In this document: positions 6,273 to 19,369 of the stretch, piece after piece
Layout: each line of letters starts with the position of its first letter
Numbering within the stretch: the first letter of the stretch is position 1
Notes under the pieces: model-generated
Told to the model about the DNA's origin: nothing
The model's database searches: none
Seen by the model: only the letters and a program-made list of their open reading frames with translations
Position numbers and translations under genes: made by a program
NCBI RefSeq assembly: GCF_900112645.1
Contig: NZ_FOMO01000002.1
Coordinates: forward strand, 119,593-183,592
DNA length: 64,000 bases
DNA from: Phytopseudomonas straminea
GTDB taxonomy: Bacteria; Pseudomonadota; Gammaproteobacteria; Pseudomonadales; Pseudomonadaceae
Reading direction: 5' to 3'

Positions 6273-7181
6273 TCACTCTTCAGCGTAGTAATCGCTATCA
6301 ATCTGCTTCACCTCATAGACTTGCTTCACACTCACGCCCAGATTGTTTTCAACCATGAGACGCGCCAGCTCCACGCCGTCGATAAGTACAACTTTAATAT
6401 CCAATCCTAATGCCGCATCACGAGCGCCAAGGGAGAAATCGGACGTGGTGATGAAAACGCCCTTGCGTGCCCGCTTACGGGTCAGGGCGCCAATAAACTT
6501 ATCGATTTCCGGACGATGAACCGTGTTGTTCCACCGTTTGGCCTGCAGATAAATGACATCAAGGCCAAGTTTGTCTTCCTTGATGATGCCGTCAATACCG
6601 TCATCATTAGTTGCCTGAGTCGCTTTGCCGGCCTCCTTGCGCGAGCCACCGTAGCCCATGGCGATCATCAGCTCGACCACTAGCTTTTCGAAAAAGCCCG
6701 GCGTACCCGCTTTGACCTGAGCCAGCACATCATCAGCCAACGCCCTTACAAGTTCCTGGTGAGCGCTAGCTAGCTGCTCATCAGGTGTCGCATCTGTAGA
6801 GTCGCGTACTGGTAATGCTGGCACTTCAACGCTTTGAACCTTGGCTGTATGGAACTCCACAAACTCAGGGAATTGCTTCAGCCAACTAATCGTGATTCGC
6901 TCTGGGCCATTAGCCAAAGCATCTAGCCCGCGAGATGTTATCTGCGTCATGCCTTTAGCAGGAATGGTCAGTAAACCGGCCTTGTGCAGATAGGTCCTAG
7001 CCCATCCAATCCGGTTATTTATGAATGTCTGACCTGAGGGCACCCGCTCTTTACGTTCTTCATCTGTAAGCGAGAACACTATTGCAACAGATTCACGTAG
7101 TTCAGTCAGAGGCAGCGGAGTTCCGCTCTGCAGAATGACTAGCAGCGGGCGCATCACGCTTTGAAAATCTGGAATTGCCAT
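6273..7181 (-). CDS. mrr: Mrr-family restriction endonuclease
   Basis: A 302-residue protein with the two-domain Mrr layout. The N-terminal Mrr_N winged-helix domain (about 1-100, with INNRIGWARTYLHKAGL) precedes a C-terminal Mrr catalytic domain (about 160-290). The PD-(D/E)xK-type active site is visible: FFEKLVVELMIAMGYGG, then D197 in GIDGII and QAK at 213-215 (IYLQAKRW). Mrr proteins are type IV nucleases cutting DNA with foreign methylation. It is separated from the upstream defence operon by a 572-base gap, so it is probably transcribed on its own. Confidence 0.9.
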   Translation of the reverse strand: MAIPDFQSVMRPLLVILQSGTPLPLTELRESVAIVFSLTDEERKERVPSGQTFINNRIGWARTYLHKAGLLTIPAKGMTQITSRGLDALANGPERITISWLKQFPEFVEFHTAKVQSVEVPALPVRDSTDATPDEQLASAHQELVRALADDVLAQVKAGTPGFFEKLVVELMIAMGYGGSRKEAGKATQATNDDGIDGIIKEDKLGLDVIYLQAKRWNNTVHRPEIDKFIGALTRKRARKGVFITTSDFSLGARDAALGLDIKVVLIDGVELARLMVENNLGVSVKQVYEVKQIDSDYYAEE

Positions 7182-7753: not shown

Positions 7754-8632
7754 CTAGCTAACTAGCTTGGATAAAAGCGGATCGTTCCGAAACAGCACGC
7801 ACCAGCGGGCAACAGCCGACAGTTCAGCGGTCCGACTTGTCATTTCCCGAATATTACTGCGCACTTCTAAAAGCTTAGCCTTCGCCGCTGGGTTATTACC
7901 CCCACAACGTGCTTTAGCGGCCTTAAAATCTTCAATAAGGTCATCAATTTTCTGCCAAACCTTCCGTCTTTCCTCAGCTAAAGGCACATGATCATTGAGT
8001 TTCAGTCGAGTAACAGTTTCTTGAACACGCTGTTGATCCCACTCAGATGTGCCAGGCATAGGGATGACTTTTCCTTCCTCATCGAAGGCGATCAAATCCA
8101 CATCGTCATCGTCAATAGGATCAAGCAGATAACGTGTCTCCGACTCCTCACATTGGTCAGCAAATGTTGAGCAGAGAGATCCATCTTTAAGTGGAAACCA
8201 GCCCCCTTTCTTACGGTTACCAACATTACCGCAAACACGAAAATTCATGTAATCAAAAGCCAGCCACCAGTAGCCATCACGCACAACTGAATCTAAAGCC
8301 TTAGCTTCTTTCTTTGGTCGAAAGTGCTCAACATCGTAGTGCGAGTACAGCTCACGAACTTCCGAAAACCAACATTTACCAGCCGATAATGCTAATAACC
8401 AATCTTTCAGCTCTCCCCAATGCCCTCTATTTGCATCTAGCAACGCATTTCGCTCTTCACGTTGACCTGCAGCGTCAAGCGCCGCCAATTCGGCAACCAA
8501 CTGTTTCGACCTAGCTAACCATGCATCCCACTTCTCCTGCGTCCAAGGAATCCATTGCTGAGCTTTGGCTTTGGGATCCCAGTTCGGGATAACAGAAGTA
8601 GGGTATTTATTCTTGAGATCGATCCAAATCAC
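7754..8632 (-). CDS. HNH endonuclease, PtuB-like (Septu-type effector)
   Basis: A 292-residue protein with an HNH nuclease core resembling the TIGR02646/PtuB group: C87-W-F-S-E91, then DVEHFRPKK (H103), then N130-FRVCGNVGNRKKGGWFPL. In this group the first motif is normally CxYC; here the second Cys is Ser, so zinc binding may be altered. The C-terminal half is charged and helical. Its ATG overlaps the ATPase stop by 4 bases (ATGA), so the two proteins are translated as a pair. By analogy with Septu, the HNH subunit is the nuclease of an ATPase-HNH complex. Confidence 0.75.
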   Translation of the reverse strand: MIWIDLKNKYPTSVIPNWDPKAKAQQWIPWTQEKWDAWLARSKQLVAELAALDAAGQREERNALLDANRGHWGELKDWLLALSAGKCWFSEVRELYSHYDVEHFRPKKEAKALDSVVRDGYWWLAFDYMNFRVCGNVGNRKKGGWFPLKDGSLCSTFADQCEESETRYLLDPIDDDDVDLIAFDEEGKVIPMPGTSEWDQQRVQETVTRLKLNDHVPLAEERRKVWQKIDDLIEDFKAAKARCGGNNPAAKAKLLEVRSNIREMTSRTAELSAVARWCVLFRNDPLLSKLVS

Positions 8633-10488
8633 TCAGCGGCCTCCTCACGCAGAATTTCGTCAATTATTGAGTCTGCAATCGCATCTTGTTCAGCTTGCTC
8701 TTCCGGCGTTAGCGCTGGTTTTCTAAAACGGCGGTGCTGCGCCATCTTGCGCACGAACAAAGCGTAATCTGGGTCGCGAAAGTCGGCGGTAGAAAAACCC
8801 AAATCAGCCAGCTCGGCGGAAAGCCGTGACAGCTCAGCATCTTCTGCTGGCGAGCGCGGTTGCTTTACAAACAGCTCATTGCGCCGGAACAGGCGCCGCT
8901 CGGTTTCGATATCCAGAGTGGACGACAGACCGAACAACTCGCTCTTAAGGAGTCCAGTCACACCCATGCCTTGCGGGTGTTCATCAGGTATATCCACTAC
9001 CGTCAGACTACCGTTGCGTCTCAGGATATGTACCTGCTCGCGCTTCAGGCTGCCCACCATCATGGGGTCGTGAGTGGTGAGGAGTATCTGCGATTCACCT
9101 TGCACTAGCGTACCGTCATCCGAGGCCAGTACACCTTCGATGTCATCGAAATACCGCAGCTTCCAGATCGGATTCAGATGAGTGTCTGGCTCATCTAGCA
9201 GGAACAGGCAATTGTCTTCGCGGGTAATGCGCATCAGGCCTAGCACGGTAAGCATTTGCAGCTCGCCTTCCGACAGATGCGTAAAGCTCACCTTGCCGCC
9301 GTGCTCATCGCGCTTTTTGACTGTAATCCGCACTTCATCGATCAGGTCGCCAATGTATGCTCCCTCTGCATAGCGAAAGAAGCTGTCGGTGCTGCCGACC
9401 AGCTCGCCCAGTTGTTTGAGCTTCTCCTGACTCGGCACGAACAGATAGAGCTGCTTTTGTCTTTCGGTGCGACCACGGAAGTCGATCTGCTTGGTCGCCT
9501 CCTGCTCAATGGGCGCCCAGGACACTTGCCAGAGCTTGTCAAGAAACTCGCTGACCACGTTGCCTCGCGCATACCAGAAGCGCGGATCGCCTTCATTTAG
9601 GTCCTGTTCGTCGAACTTGCCACTCCGGCGCTTTTCGCGCAGGCGGTGAGGCTCTTTAAGTACGAAAAGTGCGGACTCAAGCGATTCGATGTGCAGGTTC
9701 TTCAGAACCTTCTGGAACACCGGGTCATCAGATAGCAAACACGCCAGCAACACCAACTGGCTATGACCGCCACGGCAATAGAACAGGCGACGCAGGCGGT
9801 CGTCGCCAAGGTGCTTCAAGCGTCCACGATGCCGATCTTCTGCTTTGGCAAAGAATTGTGTTCTTTGCTCGTGAAATGGCTTTAGTTCATCCTGAATCAT
9901 ACGAAGCTCATCGAATTCAGCATCGCTGAGGTCGCTCTGATCTTTCCCGCTGAACCTACGCAAGGCTTCTTCAAGCTCAATCATCCGATCAGGAGCTTCA
10001 TAGGTGTCGGGTAGCACCTCGTCGGTAGTGATTTCCTGGCGCAGGTTGAAGCGGCGCTGATGCTCCTGGAACAGCACCTCGATGCGTTCGTTGCGACCGG
10101 AGTAATAGGCAAAAATGTGCGCTGGCAGCAGCTCACGGTTTTTCAGCAGATAGCCTTGCGATTCGGCCTTTCCGTCCACCCACACATAGGGGCGCTTTTG
10201 TTTGGCCGTGTCGGCTTCTATGTGCACCACGTAGTCCCGAATGCTGTATTCCAGCGTGTAATCGAAGGCTGCTTCGCGGTCCAAATCGACATCACGGAAG
10301 ATGGTGATAAGCGCTTCGATCAGGTTGGACTTGCCGGTGCCGTTCTGTCCGATCAAGGCATGGCTGCGAATCTGCTTCGGCTGTACATCTGCAGGCGCAC
10401 TCTCGCTGGATCGCAAGTGCGTCGCGAAGCTGATGTCGAGATCACGCAGATTGCGAAAGGCAGGGATGCGGATGCGGAGCAGCTGCAT
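8629..10488 (-). CDS. AAA/ABC-type ATPase, PtuA-like
   Basis: A 619-residue SMC/ABC-like ATPase. Walker A GQNGTGKS is at about 47-54, the ABC signature LSEGEL at 405-410, Walker B CLFLLDEPD at 427-435, and the switch His in TTHDP at 473. The insert between them (about 165-340) is helical. This is the layout of overcoming-lysogenization/PtuA/RloA-type defence ATPases. It begins 1 base after the hsdS stop and overlaps the HNH gene by 4 bases, so it is part of the hsd operon. Paired with an HNH protein it matches PtuA; RloA, known from type I loci, is the alternative. Confidence 0.75.
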   Translation of the reverse strand: MQLLRIRIPAFRNLRDLDISFATHLRSSESAPADVQPKQIRSHALIGQNGTGKSNLIEALITIFRDVDLDREAAFDYTLEYSIRDYVVHIEADTAKQKRPYVWVDGKAESQGYLLKNRELLPAHIFAYYSGRNERIEVLFQEHQRRFNLRQEITTDEVLPDTYEAPDRMIELEEALRRFSGKDQSDLSDAEFDELRMIQDELKPFHEQRTQFFAKAEDRHRGRLKHLGDDRLRRLFYCRGGHSQLVLLACLLSDDPVFQKVLKNLHIESLESALFVLKEPHRLREKRRSGKFDEQDLNEGDPRFWYARGNVVSEFLDKLWQVSWAPIEQEATKQIDFRGRTERQKQLYLFVPSQEKLKQLGELVGSTDSFFRYAEGAYIGDLIDEVRITVKKRDEHGGKVSFTHLSEGELQMLTVLGLMRITREDNCLFLLDEPDTHLNPIWKLRYFDDIEGVLASDDGTLVQGESQILLTTHDPMMVGSLKREQVHILRRNGSLTVVDIPDEHPQGMGVTGLLKSELFGLSSTLDIETERRLFRRNELFVKQPRSPAEDAELSRLSAELADLGFSTADFRDPDYALFVRKMAQHRRFRKPALTPEEQAEQDAIADSIIDEILREEAAE

Positions 10489-10489
10489 A

Positions 10490-12445
10490 TCAGGCGCTCA
10501 CCGTATCGGCCGACTTTTCACGCATTTCGGCCGGGGTCGGCTCCAGAATCCAGCCGCAGGCCACTTCGGTTTTCAGCTGCGCGTAAAAGGCATCTATTTC
10601 GCCACCAAAGCGCTGCCACAAATCCTTGGCGCTCATCTCGCCATTGTGGCGTGCCAGAGTAGTGGCAAGCGGTGCTTGAGCTTTGATATCAGGCGCTGTT
10701 CCCAAGCGTAGAGGAGCGATCAATTCGGTTTGCGGGGCTTTCATAGGTTCCTCATCTTGTTCGATGGCGATGCCGGTGAAGCTAGAAACAACGGCGCCAG
10801 CAAGGAGCGCTGACAGCGCCTGCTTCCGCTCCAACTGGCGACGCCATTTGTTGCAATGAGTGGTCAATTCAGAGAGCGCAGAGAGAATTCGCTGCTGCTC
10901 GTCCAGTGGCGGGATCGGAAGCGCAAAACTGCGAACCTGCGTCATGTTGATAGACGCAAGATTCGTCGTCTGCTTGGAAGCCCCGGCAAAATAATCTCGT
11001 CCAATGCCGGAGTTGAAGACCAATTCAACCCATTCATTAAGCAGCTGCCCGCTGGGGACTCGTGCCTTAAACACGTGATTTTGATGGAGGCAGTTTGCTA
11101 CACCGCCACGCCAAATCGCCGTGCGTCCAACCTTGTCCCAATCTCCACCTTCTGTGATCAAGAGATCGCCTTCGTGGATCTGATACTTCGCCAGCTCCTC
11201 AGCGGCAATCTCTATCGACTTCAAACCTTCGAGTTTGAAATGCCCTCTCTGAACATTGGCTACGGCCAAGTACGGGCAGACCATCACCTGCTTGCCACGA
11301 AGATCGCGCCCTTTGGTAACGCCACCAATAACGACCGCCACTTCATCGAAAGCGGTGACCGCCCAATGATCGGGATAGATCTCTTCGCACTCAGCCATGC
11401 CAACAAGCTTTTGGCGACGCATCAAGCCATCTGTAATGTACTGAGCCCGCAATTGCGAGCAATCTGCTTTGATCACATCAAGGTCAGGTAGCGCCACAGA
11501 GGCTTCCGCAAGCAGGCCGCGAACGGCTAGGTTTTTCAGCTCAGCGACAACGACATCCACATCCTCCGGCGTATGAAACAGCTGCCCGAAGTTGTCGGCA
11601 AGGCGTGCCCAGGTAGCTTGCAGTTCGTACGGGCTTGTGGCGCTGGCGACGGCTTGCAGGGTGGACTGGCGCAGGGAGTTTTGCAGTTTAAGGCGCTCTT
11701 GCTGCTGTGCCTCTAACTGATCGCAAAGGGCTATCAGTTCATCGACTTTGGCGACGATGCGGAATTGTTCTTCAAGCGGAGGTATTGAAATTTCAAGCTG
11801 TTCAAATTTTTCCTTCGTCATGTGTGCCATAGAAATCCCATGGCCAGACGCCTTGATTTCCTGAGTCTTCTCCAGCAACCACGTGTACAGAAATGATTTA
11901 TTAATTTCCTCGCTACTGAACAGGTCGAGCTTCCATATGTGGTAGTGGTAGATGACGCGCCCCCCACGCCAAATGAAGGGGCCAAATGATGCAGACCAAG
12001 CGAATAGCAGATCACCTGCATCGCAGTACTTGTCTTCATCTAGCTCCAAGTTGGAGAAGTACCAACGGTTGGACGTGAAGAGGTTTCCAACACGCAAAAC
12101 TGGTGTACCCGCTTCCAATAACTCTGCTTTTGAGTACGCGCGACCATTGAGAACACGAACAAGATCACACAACCGAGTGCTGACCCAACCCTGCGGCAAC
12201 TGCGAACTTTCTTGGCTGCCTCTATGGATGGTCGCGACTGCTTTCTTTCGTCTTCCTGTTGCAGGCCTGCTCTGCGCAATTGTCTTGATACGCTCCAGTT
12301 GCTTGATGGCCGGCTCTTCTGACTCGTCCTGTGAGACAAGGCGCCCCTGCACTGCCAAAGCCAATATCAACTCTCGCAATCGCGTCACGCCTCCTGGCGC
12401 ATTCGCGATAACCCCAAACTCCGCCAAAAACTTTTGCGCATCCAT
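10490..12445 (-). CDS. hsdS: Type I restriction specificity subunit HsdS with C-terminal extension
   Basis: A 651-residue DNA-recognition subunit. Two target-recognition domains are visible, each followed by a conserved helical region: SIPPLEEQFRIVAKVDELI (about 215-235) and PIPPLDEQQRILSALSELT (about 500-520). After the second one the protein continues about 100 residues beyond a normal HsdS end, with a winged-helix-like segment (APLATTLARHNGEMSAKDLWQRFGG). The frame overlaps hsdM by 1 base and ends 1 base before the ATPase gene. It directs the HsdM/HsdR complex to a bipartite target that cannot be predicted here. Confidence 0.9.
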   Translation of the reverse strand: MDAQKFLAEFGVIANAPGGVTRLRELILALAVQGRLVSQDESEEPAIKQLERIKTIAQSRPATGRRKKAVATIHRGSQESSQLPQGWVSTRLCDLVRVLNGRAYSKAELLEAGTPVLRVGNLFTSNRWYFSNLELDEDKYCDAGDLLFAWSASFGPFIWRGGRVIYHYHIWKLDLFSSEEINKSFLYTWLLEKTQEIKASGHGISMAHMTKEKFEQLEISIPPLEEQFRIVAKVDELIALCDQLEAQQQERLKLQNSLRQSTLQAVASATSPYELQATWARLADNFGQLFHTPEDVDVVVAELKNLAVRGLLAEASVALPDLDVIKADCSQLRAQYITDGLMRRQKLVGMAECEEIYPDHWAVTAFDEVAVVIGGVTKGRDLRGKQVMVCPYLAVANVQRGHFKLEGLKSIEIAAEELAKYQIHEGDLLITEGGDWDKVGRTAIWRGGVANCLHQNHVFKARVPSGQLLNEWVELVFNSGIGRDYFAGASKQTTNLASINMTQVRSFALPIPPLDEQQRILSALSELTTHCNKWRRQLERKQALSALLAGAVVSSFTGIAIEQDEEPMKAPQTELIAPLRLGTAPDIKAQAPLATTLARHNGEMSAKDLWQRFGGEIDAFYAQLKTEVACGWILEPTPAEMREKSADTVSA

Positions 12446-14223
12446 CAGGCGTCCTCACCAATAAAGTGATGCGCCAGCGCGGCAGCTAGTTCGCTCTTGA
12501 GCTGGTTTTCAGTTTCTTCGATTTCGCCCAGCAGCTTTTTGTATTTCTCCAGCAGCAGATCCGGGTCGTGGCTTTCCTCTTCAGCCGCGTTGGGGTTTTT
12601 CAAGTCGAGGTTGAAGATGGGCCAGTAGAGACGATCACCCGCCGACTGTGCATCACGCGCTTGCAAACGTAGCGGCTCCGCTTGGGCGCGCAGTTCGGCA
12701 ATCTGCGCCTCGATCTTTGCGCGGTAGGCAATGTCGGTGCTGCCGACCAGGCTGTTGCGCAGGTCGCGGGCCTCGCCTTCCAGCGCGGCGGCTTGGTTGC
12801 TCAGCGTTTCAGCACGCTGCCAGTGTGGCTGTGCGGTGGCTTCCGCCTGCTCACGTTTGGTTTTGAAATCCACCTTCCAGGCGAATTCACTTTCCACGCG
12901 GTCGGCAAAGTCGTTGGCCTCACTGCCCCACCAGTCCTGCTCGGGTTTGAACTCTTCCAGCCGGATGGGCTTGGTTTTGGAATAGCTCTTGTAGCCCGAC
13001 GGATAAGGGTGCTCGTAGAACCAGATGGTTTCGGTGTGGAAGTGCTCGGTACCATCATCCACGGTGCTGCCCTTGGTGAAAAACAGCAGGTTGGTCTTGA
13101 TGGTGGTGTAAGGGGCGAACACGCCCTTGGGTAGGCGGATGATGGTGTGCAGCTTGCAGTCACGCAGCAGGAGCTTTTTCAGTGTGCCTTTGATGCCATC
13201 GCCAAACAAGAAACCATCGGGCAGCACCACGGCGGCGCGGCCGTTCTCTTTCAAGAGTTTTTTGATGATGAGCGCCATGAACATGTCGGCGGTCTCGCGG
13301 GTGCGCAGGTCGGCTGGGTAGTCGCTGCCGACACCGTCATCCTCATAGCCACCAAAAGGCGGATTGGTGATAATGCAATCGACCTTGTCGTTAGCACTCC
13401 ATTCGTTCCATCCTATGCCCAGCGTGTTTTTGTGCTCGATCTGGCTGGGCACGTCGATGCCGTGCAACAGCATGTTGGTAGTGCACAGAAGGTGGGGTAG
13501 CTGCTTTTTTTCGATGCCGTGGATCAGCTCTTCAATGGCGCGCCTGTCTTCGGCACTGGATTTGGCGCTGAGCTGATTGCGGAAGTGGTCGATGGCGGCG
13601 GTCAAAAAGCCGCCGGTACCGCAGGCCGGGTCCATCACAGTTTCGCGCTTGTCCAGACGCGGATTAACGCGGTCGGCCATGAAGGCAGTAATCGCACGTG
13701 GGGTGTAGAACTCACCCGCGTTGCCGGCGCCGCGCAGGTCGTTAAGCATCTGCTCGTAGACGTCACCCAGGTTGGCGCGGGTTTTGAAATCATGGAAGTT
13801 GATGGCCTCGTCCAACTTTTCGATCACGGCGAGCATCTGCGAGCCGGATTTCATGTAGTTGTTGGCATCGCGGAAAACTTCACGGATGACCTTGTGCTGG
13901 GGGCTGCGGTCGGCATCTATCTGATCTTTGAGTGCAGGAAACAGCTCATTGTTGACGAAGCCTATTAACTCGCTGCCCGCGATCTGCGGCTTTTTCTTGC
14001 CATCGGCATCTGGAAGATATTTTGCCCAGTTACGCCAGCGGAATCGCTCAGGCAAGGGGGACTGGTAATCAGCCTTGTCGTCTTCCCATTCTTCTTCGCG
14101 CTGGTCGAACACTTTGAGGAAGAGCATCCAGGTGAGTTGGCCCAGGCGCTGGGCGTCGCCATCAACGCCGTCATCCTTACGCATGATGTCCTGGATGGAT
14201 TTGATGGTACTACTGAGGTTCAT
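12445..14223 (-). CDS. hsdM: Type I restriction-modification DNA methyltransferase HsdM
   Basis: A 592-residue N6-adenine methyltransferase. It has the N-terminal HsdM_N helical domain (LGQLTWMLFLKVFD), the AdoMet motif DPACGTGGFL at 198-207 and the catalytic motif IV NPPF at 287-290. The C-terminal third is coiled-coil-like (repeated Glu/Ala/Leu). It methylates host DNA with HsdS and is also part of the restriction complex. The gene starts 34 bases after hsdR and overlaps hsdS by 1 base. Confidence 0.95.
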   Translation of the reverse strand: MNLSSTIKSIQDIMRKDDGVDGDAQRLGQLTWMLFLKVFDQREEEWEDDKADYQSPLPERFRWRNWAKYLPDADGKKKPQIAGSELIGFVNNELFPALKDQIDADRSPQHKVIREVFRDANNYMKSGSQMLAVIEKLDEAINFHDFKTRANLGDVYEQMLNDLRGAGNAGEFYTPRAITAFMADRVNPRLDKRETVMDPACGTGGFLTAAIDHFRNQLSAKSSAEDRRAIEELIHGIEKKQLPHLLCTTNMLLHGIDVPSQIEHKNTLGIGWNEWSANDKVDCIITNPPFGGYEDDGVGSDYPADLRTRETADMFMALIIKKLLKENGRAAVVLPDGFLFGDGIKGTLKKLLLRDCKLHTIIRLPKGVFAPYTTIKTNLLFFTKGSTVDDGTEHFHTETIWFYEHPYPSGYKSYSKTKPIRLEEFKPEQDWWGSEANDFADRVESEFAWKVDFKTKREQAEATAQPHWQRAETLSNQAAALEGEARDLRNSLVGSTDIAYRAKIEAQIAELRAQAEPLRLQARDAQSAGDRLYWPIFNLDLKNPNAAEEESHDPDLLLEKYKKLLGEIEETENQLKSELAAALAHHFIGEDA

Positions 14224-14257: not shown

Positions 14258-16693
14258 TCAGGCTTGTTTCAGTTCGTTCTGGTCGTAAAGCGCTTGTTCA
14301 AGCTCTTGCACGGCCTGGGTGTATTGCTCGATGCTGCCGAAGATGCCGCGCCGGATCTGGGTTTTGCTGCCGAACTGGTCAAACGGCGGTAGCTCCAACA
14401 CCTTCGCGTCTTCAATGTCCTGCACACCGTGGTCGGCAAATTTATCCAGTAGGGCTTCAAGCACGGCGCGAGCCTGCTCACCGTATTTAGTGAACACATC
14501 GCGCTTCTTGACGTTGTTAGCGCGCTCGCGGCGGGTGAGCGGTTTCTGGTCGAAAGCGACGTGGGTGACCAGATCGAAGACATCCAGCTCGCTGCCGTTA
14601 GCGACGGCCTGCTGCAGGATTTCGAGTGGGACGCCATGGTCGATCAGTTCTTTGAGCACAGCCTGCTTGCGCTCAGCACTGTTCCAGCGGCGCAGAAAAT
14701 CTGTGAGCGTGCCGAACTCCGCTTGCAATGCCTTCCTGATATCGTCCTTGAGCAGGACACGGTAATCCTCGGTGATGAGTTTGCCGTCGGCGTCGAGGTA
14801 TTGCGAGCGCTCTACCGCGACGCGCACATTTACGTCGTCAATCACATATTTGACGCGACCTTCGCCACCTGTGCCGCCGATATTGCTACCAGGGGGGCTT
14901 TCATCGCTGCCAGTGGCATCGAGTCCGTAGGGCGGCGGCTCTTGCTCGCCAATACCAGGCACTTCGATGACTTCTGGCGGCACCACAGACTCGTCAGGTT
15001 TAGGCTCGTAGATCACCACAGGCTCGCCGTCGAAATCAGGGTCAGCAAATAAACGCGTGGCGCCCTTGAAATCCATGATGGTGAAGTAGAGTTTCTGATA
15101 GTCCTCTCGCAGGCGGGTGCCACGGCCAATAATCTGCTTGAACTCTGTCATCGAGTTGATGCTCTGGTCCAACACGATGAGCTTGCAGGTTTTGGCATCC
15201 ACGCCGGTGGTGAGCAGCTTGGAGGTGGTGGCGATGACCGGGTAAAGCTCGTCGTTGTCGATGAAGTAGGAGAGCTGAGCCTTGCCTACGTTGTCATCAC
15301 CAGTGATGCGCATCACGTAGCGACGGTTGCTGGCAGCGGCGGGAATAAGCTTGACCAGCTCTTGCCGCATCCGCTCGGCGTGATCCTGGTCGTCGCAAAA
15401 CACGATGGTTTTGGCCATCGGGTCGGTGGCCTTGAGGTATTCCCATACCTTGCTAGCGACGAGCTTGGTGCGCTTTTCCAGTACCAAATTGCGGTCAAAA
15501 TCCTTGGTGTTGTATTGGCGCTGTTCCACCATTTGGCCGAGCTTATCTACCTTGCCCTTCTCGGGGGTATAACCTACCGCATCGGCATCGGTAGCGATTC
15601 GGATAACCTTGTAAGGAGCGAGGAAACCATCCTCGATGCCCTGCTTGAGTGAATACGTATAAACAGGATCACCAAAGTAGATGATGTTGCTGACTTCCTT
15701 CGTCTCCTTGGGTGTGGCGGTCAGGCCTAGGTGGGTGGCACTGTTAAAGTATTCAAGTACGTCCCGCCAGGCAGAGTCATCAGCGGCACTGCCGCGATGG
15801 CATTCGTCGATGACCACCAGATCGAAGAAATCGGCCGGAAACTGACGATAGATCTGCTTCCACTCCTCACGCCCAGTTACGGCCTGATAGAGTGCCAGAT
15901 AGATTTCGTAGTTCTTCTTGACCTCGCGATTAGTGACCTTGTGCATCACCTCGCCAAAAGGGGCGAAATCCTGCTGCATAGTCTGGTCAACGAGGATGTT
16001 GCGGTCGGCCAGAAACAAAATGCGCTTCTTGGCCTTTGCCTTCCACAGCCGCCAGATGATCTGGAATGCCGTATAGGTTTTGCCGGTACCGGTGGCCATG
16101 ACCAACAGTACCCTCTGCTGGCCTTTGGCGATGGCCTCAATGGAACGGTTGATAGCGACTCGCTGGTAATAACGCGGCTCCTTGCCACTGCCGTCAGAGT
16201 AAAAAGGCTGCTCGACGAGTTTGACCGCAGTGTCCGTGCAAAGCCCCTTCCATTTCTGGTAAAGCGGCCACAGCTTGTCTAGTGATGGGAACTCGGTGAG
16301 CGAGAGCTCACGCTCGATAGGCTGCGTTAAGCCAGTACGGTCGTGAAAGAGAAATCCTTCGCCGTTGCTACTAATAGCAAATGGGGCATCCAACATCTCC
16401 GCATAAGCCAGAGCCTGCTGCATTCCATGCCCAACAGAAAACTTGGCTTGCTTGGCCTCAATCACCGCAATCGGAACGTTTGGCCGAGCATAAAGCACAA
16501 AATCCGCACGCTTAGGGCCACCCTTGACTTCAGGGTTCTTGATACGGGTCGCCAGCTTGCCACGTACCATTACTCGACCGTCGGTGAGACTTACTTCCTC
16601 ACGGAACTGATGCTGCAGCCAGCCTGCTTGCTGTATGGCCGGTGTTATGAGCTTCGTGCAGATGTCGCGTTCAGAATACTGCGCCCTGTCCAT
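14258..16693 (-). CDS. hsdR: Type I restriction endonuclease subunit HsdR
   Basis: An 811-residue motor-nuclease. The PD-(D/E)xK nuclease domain (RADFVLYARPNVPIAVIEAK; D64, E79, K81) precedes the superfamily 2 translocase, with Walker A MATGTGKT at about 199-206 and the DECH box at 296-299, followed by a QxxGRGTRLR motif VI. The C-terminus resembles the EcoEI R-subunit domain. The ATG at 16693 is chosen because a run of six G lies 7 bases upstream; a TTG four codons earlier is the alternative. First gene of the five-gene defence operon. Confidence 0.92.
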   Translation of the reverse strand: MDRAQYSERDICTKLITPAIQQAGWLQHQFREEVSLTDGRVMVRGKLATRIKNPEVKGGPKRADFVLYARPNVPIAVIEAKQAKFSVGHGMQQALAYAEMLDAPFAISSNGEGFLFHDRTGLTQPIERELSLTEFPSLDKLWPLYQKWKGLCTDTAVKLVEQPFYSDGSGKEPRYYQRVAINRSIEAIAKGQQRVLLVMATGTGKTYTAFQIIWRLWKAKAKKRILFLADRNILVDQTMQQDFAPFGEVMHKVTNREVKKNYEIYLALYQAVTGREEWKQIYRQFPADFFDLVVIDECHRGSAADDSAWRDVLEYFNSATHLGLTATPKETKEVSNIIYFGDPVYTYSLKQGIEDGFLAPYKVIRIATDADAVGYTPEKGKVDKLGQMVEQRQYNTKDFDRNLVLEKRTKLVASKVWEYLKATDPMAKTIVFCDDQDHAERMRQELVKLIPAAASNRRYVMRITGDDNVGKAQLSYFIDNDELYPVIATTSKLLTTGVDAKTCKLIVLDQSINSMTEFKQIIGRGTRLREDYQKLYFTIMDFKGATRLFADPDFDGEPVVIYEPKPDESVVPPEVIEVPGIGEQEPPPYGLDATGSDESPPGSNIGGTGGEGRVKYVIDDVNVRVAVERSQYLDADGKLITEDYRVLLKDDIRKALQAEFGTLTDFLRRWNSAERKQAVLKELIDHGVPLEILQQAVANGSELDVFDLVTHVAFDQKPLTRRERANNVKKRDVFTKYGEQARAVLEALLDKFADHGVQDIEDAKVLELPPFDQFGSKTQIRRGIFGSIEQYTQAVQELEQALYDQNELKQA

Positions 16694-16798
16694 GACGCCC
16701 CCCAAAGAGCTTTATCCGTTGTACTGAGAATATCTTGTAGAACGTCTCAATTACCAACTAGAACGACGCTTTTTGATCAAGTACAAACGCCAAGGTAT
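16694..16798 (-). promoter_or_regulatory. Upstream region of the hsd operon
   Basis: About 100 bases between the hsdR start and the tRNA-like scar. It must hold the operon promoter. On the minus strand a TTGGTA-17 bases-GATATT arrangement about 40-65 bases before hsdR is the best guess at -35/-10 boxes, with a weak fit. No operator palindrome was seen. Confidence 0.3.
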
Positions 16799-17363: not shown

Positions 17364-18224
17364 ATGAACATGGATTTCCGCGCCTATGCGCAAAACCTCG
17401 AGCTGCACAAATACCCACGCACGCCCCACCTGGAGAGCTCTCGCCTGCAGCCGGGCGATACCGATAGCGATCAGGTTCGTTATGCCTCGCTGAGCGGGCA
17501 GTGGCTGGTCGTCGAGGAAAAACTGGACGGTGCCAATGCCGGCATCAGTTTCTCCGCGGCCGGTGAACTGCTGCTGCAATCCCGTGGCCACTACCTGACC
17601 GGTGGCGGTCGGGAGCGCCAGTTCAACCTGTTCAAACAATGGGCTGTGGCCCACGAGGACTGGTTGCTGAGCCGCCTTGAAGACCGCTACGTACTGTTCG
17701 GCGAGTGGATGCACAAGAAGCATTCGGTGTTCTACGACCGCCTGCCGCACTTCTTCTGCGAGTTCGACGTATGGGATCGGGCCCATGGCCTGTTCCTCTC
17801 GACAGCCGCACGGCGCCAGTTGCTGCGCGACGGCCCGGTGCTGTCGGTGCCGGTGCTGCATGAAGGGCTGGCGCCAGCGCGGCTCAAGGATCTGCTCGAG
17901 CTGCTCGGCGATTCCCTGGCCAAGTCGCCGGCATGGCGCAGCGCGTTCGAAGCCACGGTGCAGCGCGAAGGCCTGGACCTGGAACGGGCCTGGCGGCAGT
18001 GCGACAAGTCGACGGTGATGGAAGGCCTGTACCTGAAGCTCGAAGACGAGAAACAAACCAATGGACGCCTCAAGTGGGTCCGCCAGGACTTCGTCCAGGC
18101 GATCCTCGATGCGGACCAGCATCATGCGAACCAGCCGTTCATTCCCAACCTGCTGGCCGACGGGGTAGACCTCTACGCCCCTCGCCTGTCGATGGACTGG
18201 GATGGCCAGCGGTCTGGTTATTGA
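17364..18224 (+). CDS. RNA ligase (nucleotidyltransferase family, DRB0094-like)
   Basis: A 286-residue ATP-dependent ligase. Motif I is EEKLDGAN with the adenylated Lys at 53; RYVLFGEWMHKKHS gives motif III, MEGLYLKLED motif IV and LKWVR motif V, in the order expected for covalent nucleotidyltransferases. It would seal RNA (or nicked duplex) ends by AMP transfer. The ATG at 17364 has GGAG nearby; a longer frame to 17289 is less likely. It lies 14 bases before the end-healing kinase gene, so both act together in RNA repair. The substrate RNA is unknown. Confidence 0.85.
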   Translation: MNMDFRAYAQNLELHKYPRTPHLESSRLQPGDTDSDQVRYASLSGQWLVVEEKLDGANAGISFSAAGELLLQSRGHYLTGGGRERQFNLFKQWAVAHEDWLLSRLEDRYVLFGEWMHKKHSVFYDRLPHFFCEFDVWDRAHGLFLSTAARRQLLRDGPVLSVPVLHEGLAPARLKDLLELLGDSLAKSPAWRSAFEATVQREGLDLERAWRQCDKSTVMEGLYLKLEDEKQTNGRLKWVRQDFVQAILDADQHHANQPFIPNLLADGVDLYAPRLSMDWDGQRSGY

Positions 18225-18238
18225 AGGAGACCAACAAA

Positions 18239-19369
18239 ATGGACATTCAACAACTGCAAGGCCTGGTTCCAGAACCGGGCCAGCGCTTCGACGCGCAGGG
18301 GTGCCTGGAGGCGATTCCGGCCCTGCAACGTTTGGCCAGCACGCCCCAGGATCCGTACTACCACGCCGAGGGCGACGTGTGGATTCACACCTGCATGGTG
18401 GTCGAGGCCTTGCTCGCGCAACCGCGCTATCAGCAAGCGACCGAGGAACAGCGCCTGGTGCTGTTCCTGGCCGCGCTGCTGCACGACATCTCCAAGCCGG
18501 ACACCACGGTGATCGATAGCGAAACCGGGCGCATCGGCCAGCCTGGGCACTCGCGACGCGGCGCTGTGGATGCACGGCTGCTGCTGTGGCGTGCAGGCGT
18601 ACCGTTCGAGCTGCGCGAGCAGGTCTGCCGGATCATCTCGGTGCACCAGTTGCCGTTCTTCGCGCTGTCGGGCAACCGCAGTGGGCAGAGCCCGGAGTTC
18701 ATCCTGCACAAGCTGTCGTGGGAGTTGCCGGTATGGATGCTCTGCGCGGTCGCGGAAGCGGACATGCAGGGGCGCACCTACGTGGGCAAGCAGGCCGTGC
18801 TCGACGAGATCGAGCTGTTTCGCGAGCTGGCCGACGAGGAAGGCTGCCTGTATGGGCCACGGGCGTTCGTCGATGACTACACCCGTATCCAGTACTTCCG
18901 GGGTGCCCGGGTACATCCCGACTACCCGCTGCACGAGCCGGAAGGCTCGCACGTGGTCATGCTTTCCGGCATGCCGGCCAGTGGCAAGAACACCTGGGTG
19001 GCCAAGCACCACCCGGATTTGCCGGTGATCTCCTTCGACGACGCCCGCGAGGCCCTGGGCCTGCGCCATGGCGAGAACGAAGGCGCCGCCGCGCACTTCG
19101 CCATCGACCGGGCCAAGTCGCTGCTGCGCGAGAAGCAGCCCTTCGTCTGGAACTCCACGCACCTGTCGGCGCAGATGCGCAAGAAGACCCTTGACCTGCT
19201 GTACGCCTACCAGGCCAGGGTGCAGATCCAGTATCTGGAGATGCCCGAGAAGGAGATCTACCGGCGCAACGGCCGGCGCGACACCAGCCTGCGTAACGAG
19301 GATATCCGCCGCATGCTGTTCAAGTGGGAGGTGCCGCTGCCAAGCGAGGCGCACCAGGTTCACTACTGA
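18239..19369 (+). CDS. HD-Pnk: HD phosphoesterase fused to polynucleotide kinase
   Basis: A 376-residue two-domain RNA end-healing enzyme. The N-terminal HD domain (about 20-200) has metal-binding H50, LLHDISKP (H82, D83) and later His such as SVHQLPF. The C-terminal P-loop kinase (about 235-376) has GMPASGKNTW (K250), followed by SFDDAREALG and the lid-like RRNGRRDTS. HD-Pnk enzymes studied biochemically remove 2',3'-cyclic or terminal phosphates and phosphorylate 5'-OH ends. With the ligase this gives a complete heal-and-seal set. The start has GAAGGAG 9 bases upstream. Confidence 0.85.
   Translation: MDIQQLQGLVPEPGQRFDAQGCLEAIPALQRLASTPQDPYYHAEGDVWIHTCMVVEALLAQPRYQQATEEQRLVLFLAALLHDISKPDTTVIDSETGRIGQPGHSRRGAVDARLLLWRAGVPFELREQVCRIISVHQLPFFALSGNRSGQSPEFILHKLSWELPVWMLCAVAEADMQGRTYVGKQAVLDEIELFRELADEEGCLYGPRAFVDDYTRIQYFRGARVHPDYPLHEPEGSHVVMLSGMPASGKNTWVAKHHPDLPVISFDDAREALGLRHGENEGAAAHFAIDRAKSLLREKQPFVWNSTHLSAQMRKKTLDLLYAYQARVQIQYLEMPEKEIYRRNGRRDTSLRNEDIRRMLFKWEVPLPSEAHQVHY

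Follow-up and report, generated by a model that had tools for sequence, protein, structure and literature searches.

We analysed a 64,000-nucleotide stretch of Phytopseudomonas straminea DNA, hereafter the window, which carries on its minus strand an operon in the order hsdR, hsdM, hsdS, ptuA, ptuB. hsdR (14258..16705, minus strand) encodes an 815-aa HsdR of the EcoAI/FtnUII family (NF046051, 1122 bits against a cut-off of 550), and hsdM (12445..14223, minus strand) encodes a 592-aa HsdM with N6_Mtase and HsdM_N domains (PADLOC PDLC03025, 1034 bits). The type I specificity subunit HsdS (hsdS, 10490..12445, minus strand), 651 aa long and encoded by a single open reading frame in this EcoAI-like operon, contains two Methylase_S stretches, matches PADLOC PDLC03096 with 895 bits over residues 1-650, and corresponds to known HsdS structures over residues ~78-558 of its AlphaFold2 model. 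The HsdR family, together with the two target-recognition domains of HsdS and the adjoining HsdM, identifies an EcoAI/FtnUII-like type I restriction-modification (R-M) system; the source genome holds a single match to this HsdS. The two remaining genes are ptuA (8629..10488, minus strand), encoding a 619-aa Septu-type ABC/AAA ATPase (PADLOC PDLC00293, 684 bits) with Walker A at residue 47 and Walker B at residue 428, and ptuB (7754..8632, minus strand), which begins with GTG and encodes a 292-aa Septu-type HNH nuclease (PADLOC PDLC00343, 354 bits; TIGR02646 gave only 40.9 bits, under its cut-off of 52.15). The PtuAB effector genes sit inside the hsd operon: hsdM and hsdS overlap, the ptuA ATG lies 1 base past the hsdS stop, placing the end of HsdS directly before the ATPase gene as an earlier note on this DNA had described, and the ptuB start overlaps the ptuA stop.

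Several other family models fitted these proteins poorly. The NCBIfam equivalogs for the retron Ec78-type pair scored far under their cut-offs (PtuA 19.2 of 500 bits, PtuB 57.3 of 150), window PtuA reached 128.3 bits against the cut-off of 300 for TIGR04435, and the MADS models MAD2, MAD3 and MAD5 gave 89.3 of 720, 27.8 of 420 and 24.8 of 400 bits. PrrC was not named among the best 25 PADLOC matches of PtuA.

As a tail-less reference we used the E. coli EcoAI-type HsdS P0010 (583 aa), which ends (...LADALTDAAIN) at about window residue 556. The window HsdS is thus ~95 residues longer, in good agreement with the extra C-terminal segment of about 100 residues proposed earlier. This tail consists of a linker that joins the tail domain to the last coiled coil (residues 557-572; 10730..10777, minus strand), with pLDDT below 50 at residues 562-575, and a winged-helix-like domain (residues 573-643; 10517..10729, minus strand), based on AlphaFold2, an alignment of 59 tails and pN/pS. 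In the AlphaFold2 prediction of the whole HsdS, for which 29 sequences served as input, the tail has strands at 573-576, 578-581, 603-605 and 640-643 and helices at 592-599, 606-613 and 617-629, with block means of pLDDT of 83-88 for residues 581-630, 61 for 571-580 and 77 for 631-640. Predicted alone (mean pLDDT 62), it retained the same helix-strand-helix-helix core and ended in a short helix instead of a strand. The label winged-helix-like reflects the order of the predicted elements, helix-strand-helix-helix-strand, which is that of a winged helix and is complete in the whole-protein model, the last strand being missing from the tail-only one. To that extent the model agrees with the earlier note, whose two motifs fall at residues 594-611 and 620-636. 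Structure comparisons gave little further guidance: Foldseek with the tail returned nothing at E <= 0.001 (best E 2.8), and the VIA-align Z scores for MarR (3.9), MosR (2.7) and the insert region of P. furiosus methionine aminopeptidase (5.4-6.3), an insert that we take to be classed as a winged helix, all fell in the tool's uninformative range. No Pfam family rose above noise for the 59 tails or for six divergent tails, and a PDB sequence search with the tails gave no useful match.

The tail is a real feature conserved at the protein level and no chance extension. The 59 aligned tails share 19 invariant columns, and pN was 0.104 against a pS of 0.717 over 1540 sequence pairs. The best conserved stretch is the third tail helix (residues 617-629, IDAFYAQLKTEVA; 10559..10597, minus strand), in which D618, F620, Y621, Q623, L624 and E627 are invariant across the 59 tails. 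Three loci (L034, L040 and L054) each carry another, copy-like unit past the first tail, the domain having apparently been duplicated. These properties bear on one explanation of the extra sequence, namely that it serves only to set the position of the PtuA start for translational coupling and has no role as protein. The close spacing that such an explanation would call for was found, with PtuA starting 1-2 bases past the HsdS stop in 39 of the 56 tail loci that have PtuA and PtuB; however, the pN/pS values, the predicted fold and the domain duplication all run against it, and we regard it as strongly disfavoured, with a probability close to nil. A DNA-binding winged helix, providing an extra enzyme-DNA contact or acting as an operon autorepressor, would fit the element order and the weak MarR and MosR matches. 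Yet the domain is acidic on average, with a mean net charge of -1.9 and of -0.97 in the third-helix motif region (means over 59 tails), and such a surface fits protein contact better than DNA binding. Given also that the fold matches are weak and that DNA binding leaves the association with PtuA unexplained, we consider this possibility very unlikely.

That association is evident among close relatives. Scanning 84,980 species genomes with window-tail peptides, a retrieval that favours close relatives, yielded 63 loci, and PtuA and PtuB lie directly downstream of the tail in 56 of the 59 that were assessable. Four loci were set aside, one with a broken tail and no PtuAB (L064) and three whose contigs end at most 410 bases past the tail (L019, L021 and L062; L021 and L061 stem from the same isolate and probably represent a single locus split in two). 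At L036 a PtuA remnant of 117 residues follows the tail, and L004 and L053 keep the tail with neither PtuA nor PtuB within ~8 kb. L053 looks like a case of loss, since its near relative L055 has the same zeta-like gene plus PtuAB. This gene, encoding a zeta-toxin-like kinase, lies directly past the HsdS tail in both (L055:8243-8815 and L053:8243-8815) and is followed by PtuA and PtuB in L055 and by neither in L053. Additionally, a DUF1016/YhcG nuclease gene, called by Pfam for L004 and by eye for L053 and L064, is located between hsdM and hsdS at L004:5383-6432, L053:5236-6291 and L064:5222-6286. Across L002-L063, PtuB falls into two groups with ~50-79% and ~31-35% identity to window PtuB, and PtuA is more uniform.

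The association holds when genomes are chosen by their HsdM. Searches for HsdM relatives were positive for 25 of the 369 class genomes and for 41 of the 398 genus genomes, making 65 genomes with one common to both sets; 48 were searched, with the 17 weakest class matches left out. Tail and PtuA occurred in the same seven of these 48 and neither occurred in the other 41 (Fisher p 1.4e-8, kinship ignored). By coordinates, the two were adjacent in six of the seven, and in the remaining genome, G128, they are split over two contigs, of which the second begins within a tail. G539 and G740, both among the seven, carry a divergent form at nearly identical loci (L138 and L139), with 44% identity in PtuA, 56% in a 496-aa HsdM, and a tail still recognisable at E 1e-8. 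Among 5426 E. coli genomes, at blastn sensitivity, HsdM DNA matched in 968, the tail in three and PtuA in the same three. By the earlier note's own account, a tail common in HsdS from loci lacking the ATPase-HNH module would have spoken against the proposal. It is not common there: nearly all assessable tail loci carry PtuA and PtuB, and 0 of the 41 PtuA-less genomes is tailed.

The tail co-occurs with PtuAB across several type I families. Counted from an AF.GEL-like anchor, 12 of 14 PtuA-linked HsdS proteins extend for a further 108-143 residues, compared with 0-56 in all 15 controls (Fisher p 1.8e-6, Mann-Whitney p 1.1e-5; kinship ignored); the two PtuA-linked proteins with no long end, L167 and L174, have 42 and 46 residues past the anchor. 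L150 was classed as PtuA-linked by hand, a longer ORF call having hidden its overlap. The comparison left out the EcoAI-type L219, L237 and L252, in which the anchor is internal, and the HsdS proteins with no anchor. The latter were L155 (long end) and L168 (end unclear) on the PtuA-linked side and, among the controls, L188, L191, L192, L195, L196, L203, L204 and L205, which have 48-88 residues past the last PPxxEQ-like motif, and L210, L215 and L256, which gave no usable length value. On plasmids, annotated hsdS lies upstream on the same strand in the records of all eight PtuA relatives (L156 is broken), and a plasmid protein search with the tail gave no match at E 1e-5, these plasmid systems being more distant ones that PtuA retrieved. 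HsdS is directly upstream in nine of the 12 regions retrieved by genome searches with TIGR04435 or PtuA. A further E. coli family was found with the PtuA of L151, which matched in 9 of 5426 genomes; in all four of these nine that were examined, HsdS has 126-132 residues past the anchor. In one E. coli genome whose ATPase is of the L167 type, HsdS is tail-less, with 42 residues past the anchor. Of the 23 loci retrieved by a scan with PtuA alignment A5, ten have no HsdS and 13 have HsdS upstream; ten of the 13 have a long end by eye (L261 and L262 are nearly the same), and L264, L268 and L271 do not. The earlier expectation was that tailed HsdS proteins would accompany the ATPase-HNH pair and tail-less ones would not; L004 and L053 are exceptions to its first part, and the tail-less HsdS-PtuA loci L167, L174 and L284 to its second.

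The long ends need not all be of one origin. In profile comparisons, tail set A3 matched the window tail (E 6e-5, probability 65%), whereas set A4 showed no significant similarity to A2, A3 or the window tail. A long HsdS end before PtuA is thus a recurrent pattern, with a common descent that may or may not extend to all of these ends. No PtuA was found in phage records, and viral contigs scanned with the L151 PtuA gave no match. We also observed a different C-terminal extension of ~210 residues, with no adjoining PtuA, in EcoAI-type HsdS proteins of ~740-790 aa from L245 (8064-10421) and other Pseudomonas; this group comprises 16 rows with 260-262 residues past the last motif, and Pfam gave no match in the one extension tested. 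At L264 (5984-8863), an EcoAI-type operon encodes an HsdS with no tail, a protein of 288 aa and an ATPase whose match to PtuA covers residues 1-383 only; no HNH gene was found at this locus.

Which protein the tail has evolved with was addressed by distance correlations over 31 loci with all parts (contig L029/L140 entered once; 1000 permutations). Tail distances correlated with those of PtuA at 0.71, HsdM at 0.59, the HsdS central region at 0.41, PtuB at 0.40, the HsdS N-terminus at 0.28 and HsdR at 0.26. The partial correlations were 0.58 for PtuA, a value that 0 of 1000 permutations reached, 0.40 for HsdM (6 of 1000), -0.03 for the HsdS central region, -0.18 for PtuB and -0.27 for HsdR. A neighbour control, the HsdS N-terminus against HsdM, gave -0.12, and the HsdS central region showed a weak partial correlation with PtuA (0.26; 6 of 1000 permutations). 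No single segment of PtuA or HsdM stood out as tracking the tail in segment-wise correlations. These comparisons lend indirect support to PtuA as the probable main partner of the tail, with HsdM second, and not to HsdR or PtuB. Operon linkage may contribute part of the tail-PtuA signal through shared history.

HsdM, second in these correlations, carries an insertion (residues ~456-530; 12634..12858, minus strand), just after the point, at about residue 454, where the matches of tail-less relatives stop. The insertion occurs in every one of the 62 assessable module loci and is missing from L138 and from tail-less relatives, whose HsdM is ~490 aa long. The tail could serve the methyltransferase itself, packing on HsdM, for instance on the insertion, and stabilising M2S, with PtuAB co-inherited and making no contact with it. 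The constancy of the insertion, the partial correlation with HsdM and the tails of L004 and L053, which lack PtuAB, would all fit. Nevertheless, L138/L139 combine tail and PtuAB with an HsdM that has no insertion, long HsdS ends before PtuA recur where HsdM is quite different, and the tail correlates more strongly with PtuA than with HsdM. We therefore judge a role confined to the methyltransferase unlikely.

HsdR offers a further candidate, as the tail might modulate its docking or cleavage. Of the 59 main-clade loci with enough upstream DNA (contig L029/L140 counted twice), 52 have an HsdR covered to at least 85%, as such a role would lead one to expect; however, it is reduced or absent in the other seven (L008, L035, L041, L045, L091, L257 and L141), which keep HsdM, HsdS and PtuA. 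In the L151-like family, three HsdR queries found no HsdR in the locus surroundings of L149-L152 or L280-L283 (L151 was examined from the start of its circular record only), and at two tailed E. coli loci the annotation shows no HsdR for 14 kb in either direction. At such tailed M-S-PtuA-PtuB loci, PtuAB is the sole evident effector. Because of these loci and the negative partial correlation with HsdR, regulation of HsdR is disfavoured, and we regard it as highly improbable. The earlier proposal that the tail may dock the ATPase/HNH pair or regulate HsdM/HsdR is thus supported in part: co-occurrence and correlations back a link to the ATPase, of which docking is the putative form, and the HsdR branch is disfavoured.

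We favour, with a probability of roughly 0.6, the reading that PtuAB is tied through the tail to the HsdM-HsdS methyltransferase, whose state would control the Septu effector. In the simplest version, the tail would be an adaptor domain on a flexible linker from the HsdS coiled coil, binding the neighbouring PtuA and thereby bringing PtuA-PtuB onto HsdM-HsdS. PtuAB would be kept latent by an intact methyltransferase at work on host DNA; if a phage obstructs or dislodges the methyltransferase, for example by a DNA-mimic anti-restriction protein, or the complex encounters an unexpected DNA state, PtuAB would be freed or switched on, and its HNH nuclease would attack tRNA or DNA. Counting against an adaptor are the tail-less HsdS proteins before a PtuA-like ATPase in L167, L174, L284, L268, L271 and L264 (in the last with an intervening gene) and the retention of the tail in L004 and L053, which have no PtuAB.

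Precedents for such control exist. According to the available excerpts of PMC3014915 and PMC3874165, EcoprrI sequesters PrrC, and inhibition of EcoprrI by T4 Stp leads to the activation of PrrC; a review, in the portion available, groups PrrC with PARIS as R-M guardians (PMC12707154). In the excerpts of PMC11555353, PtuAB of retron Eco7 is neutralised by reverse transcriptase (RT) and msDNA and cuts tRNA-Tyr, and another Septu is reported to target nicked DNA. In the excerpts of PMC13096335, a stand-alone Septu likewise cuts tRNA-Tyr, and phage defence by a Septu is shown to need the ATPase and HNH motifs. By analogy with PrrC and the retron, an attached sensor may plausibly restrain PtuAB in the window system as well, and its target could plausibly be tRNA or DNA.

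The window system resembles each of these without coinciding with any. Its PtuA and PtuB match the PADLOC Septu families and its Walker motifs are present, but they are encoded inside a type I R-M operon, downstream of an HsdS that carries a dedicated tail. It shares with PrrC/EcoprrI an effector with an ABC-type ATPase encoded in the hsd operon (PMC3014915 and PMC3874165, in excerpt), whereas PrrC is a single polypeptide whose nuclease part is C-terminal and the window effector is a two-gene PtuA-PtuB; the window methyltransferase side has an added HsdS domain, and the masking demonstrated for EcoprrI is hypothetical here. Like the retron Ec78/Eco7 system (Septu type II), it would have a PtuAB effector coupled to a separate neutralising sensor, which is RT and msDNA in the retron (PMC11555353, in excerpt) and, in contrast, HsdM-HsdS in our proposal. 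The name of TIGR04435, restriction system-associated AAA family ATPase, already records a restriction-linked ATPase, the comparison being by name only; the phrase is absent from the PMC literature searched. In the same literature, with subscription papers and bioRxiv mostly outside it, we found no paper describing a PtuA-associated tail on HsdS, and PtuA and HsdM were named together only in PMC11555353, where the excerpt has HsdM as part of a PrrC construct.

A broader proposal, tentative and in our estimate a little short of an even chance, is that HsdM-HsdS-PtuA-PtuB forms an integrated system of its own, in which the methyltransferase would act as sensor and brake, the tail as coupling and PtuAB as effector, HsdR would be optional, and different type I families would have acquired their long HsdS ends in parallel with PtuA. 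If the coupling is real, annotating such loci separately as type I R-M and Septu splits one machine in two, and PtuAB would be a second effector class, after PrrC, under type I enzyme control. It would also provide a small, defined interface and show PtuAB plugged into different sensors, the retrons and here a methyltransferase, and the loci with no nearby HsdR would imply that defence by a type I methyltransferase is possible without its restriction subunit.

The surroundings of the module hold further genes. Mrr-type restriction endonuclease genes lie near it at 6273-7181 in the window and at L138:1242-2342, and upstream of HsdR at several loci. Outside the operon, a long plus-strand open reading frame in the window (17933-19369) has HD and AAA_33 matches.
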